Under the pieces are notes generated by a model that saw nothing but the letters and a program-made list of their open reading frames with translations, searched no databases and had not been told where the DNA came from. From Hyphococcus sp. (GTDB lineage Bacteria > Pseudomonadota > Alphaproteobacteria > Caulobacterales > Parvularculaceae): DNA of 64,000 nt. Positions within the stretch are counted from its first letter, which is position 1, and every line of letters begins with the position of its first letter. Made by a program: the position numbers and the translations under genes. Shown here piece after piece: positions 16,836-23,507 of the stretch. The stretch lies in contig JANQJK010000013.1 of the NCBI GenBank assembly GCA_028281665.1, positions 57,841 to 121,840 on the forward strand. Reading direction: 5' to 3'.

Positions 16836-17258
16836 TCAACCCGACTGCTTCTTTGCCGTTTTTCGCTTCGCCGGTTTCTTCTTAGCCGGCGCGGCGCCGA
16901 TGAGCATGTCGAGCTTGTCCTCGATCGCCGTCAGTCGCGCTTCGATTGCGTCGAGACGGCTTTCGCCGCCGACCGCGCCGAGTTTCAGCCTTTCACGCAT
17001 GTCTCGGATGCGGTCTTCCATGGAAAAACTGGACGGCGCGACGCGCCTGGCGATCTCGCGGCCGCGGGTTTCGACGGCGTCTTCTATTTCTTCGCCGCGC
17101 TCGACGAGATCTTCAAAATACTTGCTGGTCTCGTCCGATACTTTGGCGATCGATTCCTGAGCGTCCGAAAACGCCCGGCCATATGCGCCGATGCCGGCGA
17201 GCCAGATTTTGCGCGCCATGTCGCCGGCAGGGCCCGGCGGTGTTTTTTTCTTGGCCAT
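16836..17258 (-). CDS. Phasin family protein (PhaF/PhaI-like)
   Basis: ARKIWLAGIGAYGRAFSDAQES plus Lys/Ala-rich C-terminus. Confidence 0.8.
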   Translation of the reverse strand: MAKKKTPPGPAGDMARKIWLAGIGAYGRAFSDAQESIAKVSDETSKYFEDLVERGEEIEDAVETRGREIARRVAPSSFSMEDRIRDMRERLKLGAVGGESRLDAIEARLTAIEDKLDMLIGAAPAKKKPAKRKTAKKQSG

Positions 17259-17387: not shown

Positions 17388-17774
17388 TTACGCAGCTTTT
17401 TTCGTGGCACGCTTGGACGCTTTCTTTTTCGTCAGCGCCGTAAGTTTTTTGTTCAGTGCAGCGACTTCCGCTTCGAGTTCATCGATGCGGCCCTGGTTGC
17501 CTTTTGCGGTCGGGAAAAAACGACGCAGGCCTTCAAAGGTGAAACGGTCGCCGTACATTTCATTCGTGCGTTCGCGAACATCAGCGAATGCGTCTTGTGC
17601 GCGGGTTTCAACCTTTTCGCCTTTCTCGACGAATTCGTCGAAGATCTCAGCGCCTTTGCCCGTCAGGATGGCTTCAGCGCGCTCGTAGGCGGCGCCGTAA
17701 ACGCCGAGATGGGCGAGCCAGCCTTTGCGGATTGCGTCACGCGGGGTGAGGGCGGTTTCAGTTTTCTTGGCCAT
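17388..17774 (-). CDS. Phasin family protein
   Basis: RDAIRKGWLAHLGVYGAAYERAEAIL plus KKASKRATKKAA tail. Confidence 0.8.
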   Translation of the reverse strand: MAKKTETALTPRDAIRKGWLAHLGVYGAAYERAEAILTGKGAEIFDEFVEKGEKVETRAQDAFADVRERTNEMYGDRFTFEGLRRFFPTAKGNQGRIDELEAEVAALNKKLTALTKKKASKRATKKAA

Positions 17775-17919: not shown

Positions 17920-17947
17920 AAACTTGCCAATTGCGCCGCCGGGATAA

Positions 17948-17962
17948 GAACATATAGTGAAC
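17948..17962 (+). promoter_or_regulatory. Alphaproteobacterial-type LexA (SOS) box
   Basis: GAAC-ATATAGT-GAAC (GAAC-N7-GAAC); overlaps a TTGCGC-N16-TATAGT promoter-like pair. Confidence 0.75.
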
Positions 17963-18024
17963 ATCTGTAGGATGAGTTTGCAGTCCCGGGCGGGGGCGCC
18001 GCCCAAATCACTGGGAGAATGCGG

Positions 18025-18108
18025 ATGTTTTTAAAACTGAGGCTTCTCCTCCGGAAAGCAAAAAGGCGGATCGAGCTGCAACTCAAAATCCGCCTTAAAC
18101 TCTTCTAG
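18025..18108 (+). CDS. Possible 27-aa cationic amphipathic peptide in the SOS-controlled leader
   Basis: GGGAG SD-like sequence 7 nt upstream; MFLKLRLLLRKAKRRIELQLKIRLKLF*; not in the supplied ORF track because it is short. Confidence 0.35.
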   Translation: MFLKLRLLLRKAKRRIELQLKIRLKLF

Positions 18109-18197
18109 AGGCCGAGGGGGGCGGGGAAACCCGCTCCCTGAGGCCCGGTGAACATAGCGTGCCACCTATCCGGTTACAATAACGCTAAGGGTTTCTC

Positions 18198-18884
18198 ATG
18201 GGCGTGAAGGCGCCGCCAAATCTGCCGCTATTTAAAGGCGCGGGGCTTGCCCGCTCCCGAACCCATGAGGCGTTCGGCGCCGGCGCGCGCACTTTTGCAG
18301 CCATGGTGGCCGGGTGCGCCGGCGCGTTGGAAAGGGATGCCGTGGTGTGGGTGCGACGGGTCCATGACCGCCGCCAGCTCAATCCCTTGGGGCTTGCTGA
18401 GTTCGTGGATCCGGCGCGTATCCTCCTGGCTGAATGCGAGCGCCCGGTCGATATTCTCTGGACCATGGAGGAGGCCATGCGGCTCGGCTCAGCCGGGGTC
18501 GTCATTGCCGAACTCAGCAAGCCGCCGGACCTCAAAGTCAGCCGCCGGCTCCAGCTTGCGGCGGAAGCGGGCGACGCCATCGGCCTCTGTCTGGTTGACG
18601 ATACGCCGGTCGGCAACGCCGCCGAAACCCGCTGGTTCTGCGCCCCCTCTCCAAGCGTCGACGACCTCGACTCGACTCGCTGGCGTCTTTCCCGCATAAA
18701 GAACAAAAAGGGAACATTGGGGGCGTGGGAGATCGAATGGGATGCAGAAGCGGGTTCTATCGCTGTGGTTTCCAGGATTGCCGGCGGACCGGATGGCGCG
18801 GTCGGCGGGGTTTTCGGATCTCATGGGGCCGTTCGCCGTGGTCGCGGAGGAGAAAAACGCGCTTCGGCTCTTTTCCCTGAATGA
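18198..18884 (+). CDS. imuA: ImuA-like SOS mutagenesis protein
   Basis: LGLAEFVDPARILLAECERPVDILWTMEEAMRLGSAGVVIAEL; upstream of imuB-dnaE2. Confidence 0.85.
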   Translation: MGVKAPPNLPLFKGAGLARSRTHEAFGAGARTFAAMVAGCAGALERDAVVWVRRVHDRRQLNPLGLAEFVDPARILLAECERPVDILWTMEEAMRLGSAGVVIAELSKPPDLKVSRRLQLAAEAGDAIGLCLVDDTPVGNAAETRWFCAPSPSVDDLDSTRWRLSRIKNKKGTLGAWEIEWDAEAGSIAVVSRIAGGPDGAVGGVFGSHGAVRRGRGGEKRASALFPE

Positions 18885-20262
18885 GGCGGCGATCAAGGCG
18901 GGCCTGACCGAAGGGGTGGCGCTGACCGACGCCCGCGCGGTGTTGCCGATATTGAAGACAAAAGTCGCCGAGCCGGAGCGGGACGCCGCCTTCCTCGCGG
19001 CGTTGCATCGCTGGGCCGGTCGTTTTTCACCATTCGTTGCAAAAGACGGCTTCCCGGGCGCTCCCCAAGACGGGCTTTGTCTCGATATTACAGGTTGCGC
19101 TCATCTCTTTGGCGGCGAACAGGCCATGCTTGAAGAAATGAGCAGCGAGCTTGCGCGATTGGGCGTGCGCAACGCTTGCGCTGTCGCTGATACGAAAGGC
19201 GCTGCTTTCGCGTTGGCGCGGCAGGTCAAGTCTGCCGTCGTCGCTCCGTCAGGGAAAACGCGTGAAGCCCTTGCGGATTTGCCTTTGTTCGGTCTGCGGA
19301 TCGACCGTGAAACGGTTGCGGGTTTAAACCGTCTTGGTCTTGCGACCATTGGCGCGCTTTATGACGTGCCGAGAGCATCGCTGGCGAGGCGGTTTGGTCT
19401 CACTCTCGTCACGCGGCTTGATCAGGCGCTGGGGTTTGTCAGCGAACCAGTGGCGCCGGCTGCGCCGGTTAAAATTTTTGCCGCGCGCATGACCCTGCCG
19501 GAACCGATCGGGCTTGTGGACGATGTGAAGGAAGCGCTGCGTCGCCTCCTTGCGCAACTCTGCATGGGGCTTGAAGAAGCGGGCGCCGGCATGCGCGCCG
19601 TGCGCCTTACCGTGCGCCGCACCGACAATAGCGAGGAGCCGGTTGATATCGGGCTCGCAAAGCCCTCACGGGACGGGACAATGATCCTGCGGCTGTTCGA
19701 GCGAGAGCTCGATGCGCTCGACGCCGGCTTCGGGATTGAATTTTTGCGACTGCAGGCGCGGGGCGTCGAACCCTTGTCGCCGCGCCAGCTTTCCGGCGAT
19801 CCTTCGAAACAGAACGAGGGCGCGCTTGACGAACTCATTGCGCGCCTGGGCAACCGCATTGGTTTCGATCAGGTCAAGCGCTTCATACCGCAGGAAAGCC
19901 ACATTCCCGAGCGGGCCTTTCTGCGCGGTGCAGCAATCCGCATGCGGACTGAAAAGGTTGAATGGGCGCGCGCCGGCCCCCGCCGGCCGCTGACGCTGTT
20001 CCCGCCCGAACCGGTGCAGCAGATCCTGCCCGGCAGGCCGCCAAAGGCGATTTCCTGGCGGGGGCGAAAAATTGATATCGCAAAGGCGGCCGGCCCTGAG
20101 CGTATTGCGCCGGAATGGTGGCGGAAAAATCCGGGCTGGGCCGGCAAGCCGAAAGATTACTGGCGTGTTGAAGGAACGGGCGGGGAACGGCTGTGGCTCG
20201 CAGAAGACCATGAAGCCAGGAAGGAAGGCGCGGACTGGAAAGTCTGCGGCGAATTCCCGTGA
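18742..20262 (+). CDS. imuB: Y-family DNA polymerase-like protein ImuB
   Basis: MQKRVLSLWFPGLPADRMARS ... GLCLDITGCAHLFGGE. Confidence 0.92.
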   Translation: MQKRVLSLWFPGLPADRMARSAGFSDLMGPFAVVAEEKNALRLFSLNEAAIKAGLTEGVALTDARAVLPILKTKVAEPERDAAFLAALHRWAGRFSPFVAKDGFPGAPQDGLCLDITGCAHLFGGEQAMLEEMSSELARLGVRNACAVADTKGAAFALARQVKSAVVAPSGKTREALADLPLFGLRIDRETVAGLNRLGLATIGALYDVPRASLARRFGLTLVTRLDQALGFVSEPVAPAAPVKIFAARMTLPEPIGLVDDVKEALRRLLAQLCMGLEEAGAGMRAVRLTVRRTDNSEEPVDIGLAKPSRDGTMILRLFERELDALDAGFGIEFLRLQARGVEPLSPRQLSGDPSKQNEGALDELIARLGNRIGFDQVKRFIPQESHIPERAFLRGAAIRMRTEKVEWARAGPRRPLTLFPPEPVQQILPGRPPKAISWRGRKIDIAKAAGPERIAPEWWRKNPGWAGKPKDYWRVEGTGGERLWLAEDHEARKEGADWKVCGEFP

Positions 20263-23200
20263 GCTACGCTGAGCTGTGCGCGACATCCAACTTTACTTTC
20301 CTCACCGGCGCATCGCATCCGGAAGAGCTGGCGGCGCGTGCAAAGGGTCTGGGGCTCAAGGCGCTCGCCGTCACAGACCGCAACAGCCTTGCAGGCATTG
20401 TGCGCGCCCATGCAGCGGCGAAGGAGGAGGGCCTGAAATACATTGTCGGCGCACGCATCGCCCTGGAGGACGGCGCGGAATTTTTGATGTTTCCCGAAGA
20501 CAGAACGGCCTATGGCCGTCTCTGCCGGCTCCTTACGACCGGCAAGCGCCGGGCGGAAAAGGGAAGTTGCAGCCTTCAGCTTGCAGACCTTCTTGAATGG
20601 GCTGAAGGCTCAGTATTGGTGGGGTTGCCGCCCGATGTAATGGAAGAAGAACCGAAGCTTTTCCTCTTGCATATCCAAACCCTCAAACGAAAATATCCAA
20701 CCTCAACTTATCTCGCCGCCTATCCCCGTTATGACGGAAGGGATCAGGCGCGGTTTGCCCGCCTGAAAGACATTGCCGACGCTCAGCAAACGCCGATGGT
20801 TGCGGTTGGCGACGCGCTTATGCATGACAGCGCGCGGCGCCCCCTGGCCGATGTCCTCTCCTGCATCCGAGAGAAGACAACCATCGATCAGCTTGGCCGT
20901 CATGCGCAGCCGAATGCCGAGCGCCGTCTTAAAAGCCCGTTTGAAATGCGTCGCCTCTTCGCCGGTCATGAAGACGCGTTGGCCCGCACGCTTGAGATCG
21001 TCGAACGCTGCACATTCTCGCTTGATGAGTTGCGTTACGAGTATCCGGACGAGGTGAGCAATGGCGAGGAGCCTTTCGATCGGCTGACGCGGCTGACCGA
21101 AGAGGGCTTGCGCGAAAAATATCCGGACGGCGCGCCGCTTCCCGTTCGCGCCACCGTCGAAAAGGAATTCCGCCTTATCCGCGAGCTGGATTATGCGCGT
21201 TATTTCCTCACCGTGCATGACATTGTCCTCTTCGCCCGTGAGCGTGGCATTCTTTGTCAGGGGCGCGGTTCGGCGGCCAATTCCATTGTCTGTTACGCTC
21301 TCGGCATCACCTCCATCGCTCCCGACCTTATCTCCATGGTCTTTGAGCGCTTTGTTTCTGCGGCTCGCAACGAGCCGCCGGATATCGACGTCGATTTCGA
21401 ACATGAGCGGCGTGAGGAGGTGATCCAGCATATCTATGAGAAATATACTCGCGATCGCGCTGGGATTTGCGCCACCGTCTGTCATTTTCGCTCCCGCGCA
21501 GCGATCCGCGAAGTGGGTAAAGCGATGGGATTGTCCGCAGACGTTGTGTCGGCGCTGGCGAGTCAGGTCTGGGGCTGGTCCTCGGAAGGCGTGAGCGAGG
21601 ATCGCGCCAGACAGGCGGGGTTGTCGACCGCCGATCCGCGTCTCAAGCAGACCCTGGCGCTGACCAGGGAGCTGATCGGTTTTCCTCGGCATCTTTCGCA
21701 GCATGTGGGCGGCTTCGTTATCACCCGAGGGCGTCTTGATGAATTCTGCGCTATTGAAAACGCGGCCATGGATGACCGCACGGTGATCGAGTGGGACAAG
21801 GACGATATTGACGTTCTCGGCATGCTGAAAGTGGATGTTCTGTCCCTCGGCATGCTCACCTGTATCCGCAAGGCGTTCGATTTGCTGAGCCAGCATGAAG
21901 GCGTGAACTATGCTCTGGAGACTCTCCCGGCAGAGGATCCGACTGTTTACGACATGTTGTGCGAAGGTGATTCCGTCGGCCTCTTCCAGGTGGAAAGCCG
22001 GGCGCAGATGAACTTTCTGCCGCGCATGCGGCCGCGCAACTTTTACGATCTTGTCATTGAAGTCGCGATCGTCCGCCCCGGCCCCATTCAGGGCGATATG
22101 GTCCACCCTTATCTGAAACGCCGGCGTGGCGAGGAGAAGGTGACCTTTCCTTCTGACGATCTGCGCGATGTTCTCAACAAGACGCTCGGTGTGCCGTTGT
22201 TTCAGGAACAGGCGATGCAGGTTGCTGTAGTGGTGGCGGGATTTGACCCCAGCGAGGCGGATGCTCTGCGCCGGTCGCTCGGCGCTTTCCGCGGGCCAGG
22301 CACGGTGTCCAAGTTTAAGGAAAGATTTTTAACAGGGTCGGTCGAACGCGGGTACGACCTTGATTTTGCCGAGCGCTGTTTTTCTCAGCTTGAAGGTTTT
22401 TCCGGTTACGGATTTCCTGAAAGCCACGCGGCGAGTTTTGCGCTCCTTGTTTATGCGTCCGCCTGGCTGAAGAAGCATCACCCGGCGGTTTTCTGTTGTG
22501 CGATCCTGAATTCCCAGCCCATGGGGTTTTACGCTCCCGCCCAGCTTGTTCGCGATGCGCGAGAGCATGGGGTTGAAGTCCGGCCCATTTCCATCAACGC
22601 GAGCTACTGGGAGAATACGCTTGAACCGGACGGTTTTGGCGAACATGCGGTGCGGCTCGGGTTTAGGCAGCTTAAAGGCTTTAAGGAAGAAGATGCGGCC
22701 TGGCTGACGGCTGCTCGCGGCAATGGCTACCGTTCGGTTGAAGCGGTCTGGCGATGCGCTGGCGTTGGTCCTGCAGCGCTGGCCACACTCGCCGAAGCCG
22801 ATGCTTTTGCGGAGTTAGACTTGTCGCGGCGTGAAGCGTTATGGGCTGCGAAAGCGATCCGCAGCGAAGAACCGATGCCGCTGTTCCAGCAGGAGGAAGA
22901 TGATGCGCTGACGGAAGAACCGGCGCGGCTGCCGGCTATGTCGCTGGGGGAGGAGGTGTTTGAGGATTATGTGGCGACGCGTTTGTCGCTGCGCGCCCAT
23001 CCGGTTGAGTTGTTGCGCGAAAGGCTGGGCGGTCTCAAAGCCGAAGACCAGATGAAACCCGCCGATGGCGAACGGGTGAGTGTCAGCGGTCTTGTCATTA
23101 CCCGCCAGCGGCCGGGTACGGCGAGCGGCGTTATCTTTATCACCCTTGAAGACGAAACCGGCGTCATCAATGTCATCGTCTGGCCGAAAACCTTTGAGCG

Positions 23201-23507
23201 CTATCGCAAGGTGGTGATGCAGGGGAGGCTCCTGCGCGTCACCGGCAAACTCCAGCGGGAAGGCTCCGTCATGCATATCGTTTCATGGAAGATCGAGGAC
23301 TGTTCTTATATGCTCGACGAACTGGGCCGCGCCGGCGCTGCGGGCCGTACGCTTGAGCAGGAGGTTGGCCGTTCGGATGAAGCCAAACATCCGGTCTCCC
23401 GCGTCGATCACGGTCCCGCTTCCAAGCGTCAACCTTCACACATACCGCGCCCGCGCCACCCACGCGAACAGGCCAAGGTTTTATTCCCAAGCAGGGACTT
23501 TCATTGA
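20259..23507 (+). CDS. dnaE2: Error-prone DNA polymerase III alpha subunit DnaE2 (ImuC)
   Basis: YAELCATSNFTFLTGASHPEEL, GRGSAANSIVCYALGIT, PDIDVDFEHERREEVIQ. Confidence 0.97.
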   Translation: MSYAELCATSNFTFLTGASHPEELAARAKGLGLKALAVTDRNSLAGIVRAHAAAKEEGLKYIVGARIALEDGAEFLMFPEDRTAYGRLCRLLTTGKRRAEKGSCSLQLADLLEWAEGSVLVGLPPDVMEEEPKLFLLHIQTLKRKYPTSTYLAAYPRYDGRDQARFARLKDIADAQQTPMVAVGDALMHDSARRPLADVLSCIREKTTIDQLGRHAQPNAERRLKSPFEMRRLFAGHEDALARTLEIVERCTFSLDELRYEYPDEVSNGEEPFDRLTRLTEEGLREKYPDGAPLPVRATVEKEFRLIRELDYARYFLTVHDIVLFARERGILCQGRGSAANSIVCYALGITSIAPDLISMVFERFVSAARNEPPDIDVDFEHERREEVIQHIYEKYTRDRAGICATVCHFRSRAAIREVGKAMGLSADVVSALASQVWGWSSEGVSEDRARQAGLSTADPRLKQTLALTRELIGFPRHLSQHVGGFVITRGRLDEFCAIENAAMDDRTVIEWDKDDIDVLGMLKVDVLSLGMLTCIRKAFDLLSQHEGVNYALETLPAEDPTVYDMLCEGDSVGLFQVESRAQMNFLPRMRPRNFYDLVIEVAIVRPGPIQGDMVHPYLKRRRGEEKVTFPSDDLRDVLNKTLGVPLFQEQAMQVAVVVAGFDPSEADALRRSLGAFRGPGTVSKFKERFLTGSVERGYDLDFAERCFSQLEGFSGYGFPESHAASFALLVYASAWLKKHHPAVFCCAILNSQPMGFYAPAQLVRDAREHGVEVRPISINASYWENTLEPDGFGEHAVRLGFRQLKGFKEEDAAWLTAARGNGYRSVEAVWRCAGVGPAALATLAEADAFAELDLSRREALWAAKAIRSEEPMPLFQQEEDDALTEEPARLPAMSLGEEVFEDYVATRLSLRAHPVELLRERLGGLKAEDQMKPADGERVSVSGLVITRQRPGTASGVIFITLEDETGVINVIVWPKTFERYRKVVMQGRLLRVTGKLQREGSVMHIVSWKIEDCSYMLDELGRAGAAGRTLEQEVGRSDEAKHPVSRVDHGPASKRQPSHIPRPRHPREQAKVLFPSRDFH

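Follow-up and report, generated by a model that had tools for sequence, protein, structure and literature searches.

What is encoded between the SOS-type promoter and the imuA gene of this Hyphococcus species? We examined the locus in the 64,000-nucleotide stretch of DNA analyzed here (the window) and in related genomes. A short open reading frame (ORF) lies between the two and belongs to a cassette of ~170 bp, which separates a putative LexA-controlled promoter from imuA both in the window and in a second genome, G023. Judged from its conserved signals, the cassette is probably a type I toxin-antitoxin-like module, a candidate that would be SOS-inducible through its landing place.

The imuA locus and its putative LexA operator

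The imuA gene (18198-18884, plus strand) was assigned by aligning its ORF by eye with imuA of relatives; it has no Pfam match. It is followed on the same strand by imuB (18742-20262; Pfam IMS and IMS_C) and by a gene with Pfam DNA_pol3_alpha and related domains (20259-23507), called dnaE2 from its place after imuAB. Homologs of imuB are found in 67 of 100 relatives. Within the genus imuB is patchy, with matches in about half of the 28 genomes, and some of the others are incomplete. Two adjacent phasin-like genes are encoded on the minus strand (16836-17258 and 17388-17774), divergent from the imuA promoter. Both match Pfam phasin, the second below the curated cut-off.

In the preliminary description, a GAAC-N7-GAAC motif was placed on a promoter-like TTGCGC-N16-TATAGT before imuA, and both are present exactly as described there. 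The promoter spans 17931-17958 on the plus strand (-35 at 17931-17936, -10 at 17953-17958). The motif, GAACATATAGTGAAC at 17948-17962 on the same strand, overlaps the -10 and ends ~235 bp before the imuA ATG at 18198. Scored with our own rough sigma-70 weights, this is the top sense promoter within -400/+500 of the small ORF's ATG, in the window and G023 alike. The N16 spacing recurs in G023 and in genome G013.

Within the window, three copies of the motif are present against 2.57 expected, which by itself is no more than chance. Its reading as a LexA box follows from its position and conservation. Genome-wide, GAAC-N7-GAAC occurs 100 times versus 53 for a reversed control, and one copy (C10:236254-236268) lies ~100 nt upstream of a match to the lexA DNA-binding domain in the window's genome. 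Most of the ImuB-bearing relatives examined have the box upstream of imuA at an equivalent position, typically a few nucleotides ahead of its start codon; at a few of the displayed loci there is no box directly 5' of imuA or the imuA start is ambiguous. We consider 17948-17962 a putative LexA (SOS) operator of the alphaproteobacterial type at a promoter. The earlier proposal of a small ORF driven by an SOS promoter upstream of imuA is supported, the box and promoter being in place and the motif being present near lexA and before the imuA of relatives.

A second GAAC-N7-GAAC is found at 18701-18715, within the 3' end of imuA and 26 nt before the start of imuB. Boxes matching it in position are present in several relatives (loci L032, L033, L034, L035 and L039-L041). 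Either an internal operator or simply conserved coding sequence may explain this box.

A conserved ORF for a cationic peptide

The ORF at 18025-18108 (plus strand) codes for the 27-residue peptide MFLKLRLLLRKAKRRIELQLKIRLKLF, with 10 Lys/Arg, one Glu and a net charge of +9. Homologs are encoded in two other genomes of the same genus, in G023 (MLLKLKLLFQKSKRRIAAQLQIRLKLF, 27 residues) and in Marinicaulis sp. DHS20C05, genome G011 (MFLKLKLLFGKAKRRIEVQLKIRLKL, 26 residues), and the charge is +8 to +9 throughout. The G023 ORF lies upstream of imuA with the same box, and the ImuB encoded there is 84% identical. Conservation singles out 18025 as the start; it does not extend to the in-frame ATG further upstream, at 18019. 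The Shine-Dalgarno sequence GGGAGA (18013-18018, plus strand) is kept as GGGAGA or AGGAGA in all three genomes. Codons 7-8 (CTTCTC) are its predicted pairing partner, with four core pairs that are invariant in the three genomes. Across the 26-27 codons there are no indels or stops, and the Shine-Dalgarno sequence, start and stop are all kept. In size the ORF falls within the range used for type I toxins, being under 60 residues with translation signals, and we regard the peptide as a toxin candidate.

Is the frame under selection as a protein? The pairwise dN/dS values among the three genomes are 0.28, 0.21 and 0.11. A terminator on the opposite strand, described below, would account for the lack of synonymous change in codons 13-16 and 22-23. 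With the terminator positions held fixed, only the G011-G023 codon signal is significant (P 0.002-0.02), and the differences between these two ORFs favor conservative replacements (P 0.002-0.04). The anatomy thus supports coding well; the codon statistics do so moderately and are not decisive. As to the preliminary description, its account of the peptide was exact in sequence, coordinates and composition. Loss of the frame in relatives, which it had named as a refuting result, was not seen: the frame, Shine-Dalgarno sequence, start and stop are kept in two relatives, with a moderate codon signal.

The same description had noted an alternation of polar and apolar residues at the peptide's end. 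This is confirmed as a periodicity of the beta type: in each of the three homologs the hydrophobic moments of residues 16-26 at 165-180 degrees give shuffle P <= 0.004, and nothing stands out in the helical moment (100 degrees). It had also named TisB as a conceptual precedent. The best 15-residue Kyte-Doolittle mean is about -0.1 to +0.14, and no hydrophobic stretch of transmembrane length is present, so the peptide is not a membrane peptide of the TisB type. The hydrophobic alpha-helical transmembrane segment expected of membrane-associated type I toxins (TisB, Ibs, Hok, Fst, AapA) is missing. An invariant Q-L-x-I-x-L (QLKIRL or QLQIRL) may, we presume, be a motif for binding the beta clamp, an idea we offer as a lead.

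A profile of the peptide yielded nothing significant beyond the three genomes among ~580 relatives and genomes of the class, and no homologs were found in the plasmids, phages or viral contigs searched; a search of genome contigs gave the G011 record alone. Weak matches in G010 and others were dismissed as chance, as they lie inside other genes or lack the ORF. Searches of Pfam, NCBIfam, PADLOC and PDB gave no match to the peptide, and PHROGs gave no significant one.

A predicted antisense RNA on the opposite strand

The minus strand carries a predicted promoter, TTGTAA-N17-TATGTT, at 18151-18179 (-35 at 18179-18174, -10 at 18156-18151). Its counterparts in the other two genomes are TTGAAA-N17-TAAATT and TTGATT-N17-TATATT. 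The spacing is exactly N17 in all three, and the promoters lie at +131, +131 and +129 from the peptide ATG. The spacer sequences are unrelated while the hexamers persist. Each promoter has the top antisense score within 400-500 nt, and in the window the frequencies of scores as high are ~1e-4, 8e-6 and 8e-6 per position. The hexamers match at only 4-5 of 6 positions.

From this promoter an antisense RNA of 89 nt is predicted (18056-18144, minus strand; the start is placed from the -10), which we regard as an antitoxin candidate. Its predicted lengths in the three genomes are 89, 89 and 87 nt, and each version is predicted to form two hairpins. Its complement is the latter half of the ORF, from about codon 11 to the stop, together with the 3' hairpin of the mRNA; it does not reach the Shine-Dalgarno sequence. 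An intrinsic-terminator-like hairpin on the minus strand (18052-18096; arms 18096-18088 and 18071-18063) is formed by the inverted repeat AAGGCGGAT/ATCCGCCTT inside the ORF and followed on that strand by the T-run TTTTTGCTTT. Terminator-like sites of this kind are not rare in the window, with 12 on both strands versus 1-3 in shuffled sequences, and the weight of this one therefore lies in its conservation and position: both the stem and the T-run persist in each of the three. The 5' hairpin of the antisense RNA, which is also the 3' hairpin of the mRNA, is GC-rich with a GA/GA internal loop and a GAAA loop (18110-18145). Three of its pairs are changed on both sides with pairing kept, and it folds strongly in the window and G011. 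No obvious U-tract terminator of the mRNA's own is present. A standard promoter and terminator scan listed nothing here, its terminator rule accepting only loops of 3-8 and the hexamers falling below its promoter rule. Taken together, the conserved signals predict a short antisense transcript served by a promoter and a terminator of its own. Rfam searches gave nothing at the gathering score and nothing significant near the cassette.

These signals raise the question of whether the conserved unit is simply an ordinary gene for an 89-nt small RNA on the minus strand, with the peptide frame opposite it incidental. The promoter and terminator are indeed the best-kept parts, and much of the conservation at synonymous sites belongs to the terminator stem, leaving a modest codon signal once it is fixed. 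Such an explanation would not account for the integrity of the 26-27 codons in three genomes or the preference for conservative replacements between G011 and G023. Conservation also extends past the antisense terminator over codons 1-9, the start codon and the Shine-Dalgarno sequence, which is more than an element acting only as RNA would need. We consider this explanation unlikely.

Conversely, the peptide could be a free-standing SOS-induced effector in the sense of SidA or TisB, inhibiting growth or division, and the minus-strand transcript would then play no part as an antitoxin. The LexA box, the promoter and the conserved cationic peptide fit this, and SOS peptides of roughly this size exist (PMC4211646, PMC3567139). 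It leaves unexplained, however, why a minus-strand promoter and terminator are co-located with the ORF in three genomes, and it suits neither a peptide lacking a transmembrane segment nor the G011 copy, which has no LexA box or imuB. We find a free-standing effector quite unlikely.

One cassette at two loci

In G011 the cassette lies upstream of metH and points away from it. No imuB match was found in this genome, which is 88% complete, and the top promoter-like site upstream of the G011 copy is TTCACA-N18-TATGAT. The cassette is kept at ~80% DNA identity. Its outer flanks in G011 bear no relation to those in the other two genomes. Among the displayed imuA loci, the gap of ~235 bp from box to ATG is found only in the window and G023; in every displayed relative except G011, the region upstream of metH is without the cassette. 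One unit of ~170 bp thus occupies two unrelated loci, and the comparable sites are empty in relatives. Of the genomes searched only three carry it, and two of these (the window's and G023) are sister species. The link of the peptide to LexA is due to the position of the cassette. Neither this, nor the second locus without imuB, nor the predicted antisense RNA figures in the preliminary description.

No mobility genes were identified flanking the cassette. An 8-bp repeat, GTGAACAT (17957 and 18148), was considered as a target duplication and rejected, the second copy appearing to be part of the cassette.

G011 has a second site of similarity. At L064 1501-1528, 28 nt are identical to the core of the window ORF (AGGCGGATCGAGCTGCAACTCAAAATCC); the piece is without the ORF start and adjoins a hairpin-like GCCGAGG...CCGAGGC. 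Possibly it is a relic or a trans-acting piece. The other matches to a model of the antisense RNA were attributed to chance.

The palindrome CATATAAAGATATCTTTATATG or a close variant is found upstream of metH in the displayed members of the genus (L063 ~1440-1462; L115-L124). We take it to resemble the SahR-type operator of methionine-cycle genes.

The two locations bear on whether the ORF is a leader peptide or attenuator setting imuA translation, as its place between promoter and imuA and the strong hairpins between ORF and imuA might suggest. The other imuA genes of the family are usually almost leaderless, however, and a leader of imuA would hardly be expected upstream of metH in a genome without an imuB match. 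We judge such a role very unlikely. Less likely still is a chance ORF in a non-functional insertion. The element is present in just 3 of 62 genomes of the family, as such an insertion might be. Conservation disfavors this reading, as the Shine-Dalgarno sequence, frame, stop, promoter spacing, terminator and hairpin covariation are kept at ~80% DNA identity, and parts of the cassette are kept where the outer flanks are unrelated. We give it hardly any credence.

A model for SOS-induced release of the peptide

An antisense RNA alone, a stand-alone peptide and an imuA leader are the less probable explanations, and each leaves a conserved part unexplained. In the toxin-antitoxin-like module that we favor, the plus strand would encode the cationic beta-amphipathic peptide, whose own codons 7-8 can mask the Shine-Dalgarno sequence. 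The minus strand would steadily supply the 89-nt RNA from its own promoter, ending at its own terminator. By pairing with the peptide mRNA, this RNA would probably expose the message to cleavage by RNase III and abolish its translation. Since the toxin strand of the window and G023 lies behind the putative LexA operator, SOS induction would outrun the antisense RNA: upon DNA damage the LexA promoter would flood the cell with peptide mRNA, and the peptide would be released together with the mutasome. Its site of action would probably be the surface of the membrane or a target with negative charge, and its effect slower growth. Transcription of both strands, translation, pairing, toxicity and target are all inferred here.

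A broader proposal is that the cassette represents a new toxin-antitoxin family with a cationic peptide forming a beta-amphipathic strand or hairpin in place of a membrane helix, that its insertion between the LexA promoter and imuA joined all of imuA-imuB-dnaE2 to an antisense-controlled toxin transcript, and that a single small RNA governs peptide release as well as mutasome output. As a whole we hold this to be doubtful. If the module works as in the model above, it would be a new type I-like family in the Alphaproteobacteria, found in two different places in one genus, with a toxin that joined the SOS response simply through insertion behind a LexA promoter. A growth-slowing peptide and a mutagenic polymerase cassette would share one damage-induced transcript, and the peptide, being beta-amphipathic with a charge of +8 to +9, would differ chemically from the usual membrane-helix toxins.

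Comparison with known systems

A close parallel is tisB of E. coli, in which a peptide mRNA is LexA-controlled and the constitutive small RNA antitoxin IstR-1 is out-titrated on SOS induction (PMC8309996, PMC4147584). Like tisB/IstR-1, the cassette has a small peptide mRNA with sequence-supported LexA control and a predicted RNA partner. TisB is a transmembrane peptide, whereas the cassette peptide lacks such a segment. IstR-1 is divergent and acts upstream of the ORF, whereas the predicted cassette RNA is convergent and lies inside it. The absence of a LexA box from the G011 copy is a further difference from tisB.

In its predicted layout the cassette is similar to Ibs/Sib of E. coli, where a tiny ORF faces a small antisense RNA gene on the other strand (PMC4147584). 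Sib covers the start site and can span the whole ORF, while the cassette RNA is predicted to cover codons ~11 to the stop and the 3' hairpin; the cassette peptide has no Pfam match. Convergent antisense RNAs over the 3' part of the toxin mRNA, as predicted for the cassette, are found in txpA/RatA, bsrG/SR4 and yonT/SR6 of B. subtilis. The overlap is ~75 nt for txpA/RatA and ~120 nt for bsrG/SR4, and SR6 is 100 nt long (PMC4147584, PMC5848175). TxpA (59 residues) and YonT (58 residues) are longer than the cassette peptide, with the sequences compared through family libraries only. Like the cassette, aapA1/IsoA1 of H. pylori combines a short peptide, the 30-residue AapA1 with charged ends, with a structured mRNA and a cis-encoded antisense RNA (PMC8309996), the last of these being predicted in the cassette; AapA1 has an amphipathic transmembrane helix, whereas the cassette peptide is beta-periodic.

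SidA and DidA of Caulobacter are, like the candidate peptide, alphaproteobacterial small proteins, and they are induced by DNA damage (PMC4211646). They differ in being division inhibitors, and we know of no antisense partner for either.

A transmembrane helix is usual in type I toxins, but type I systems with the cytosolic toxins RalR and SymE exist (PMC8309996), so the missing helix is compatible with a type I mode of action. Convergent type I systems act via duplex formation and RNase III (PMC4147584). While we do not claim a place for it in the membrane-toxin subclass, the cassette resembles type I systems in its predicted layout.
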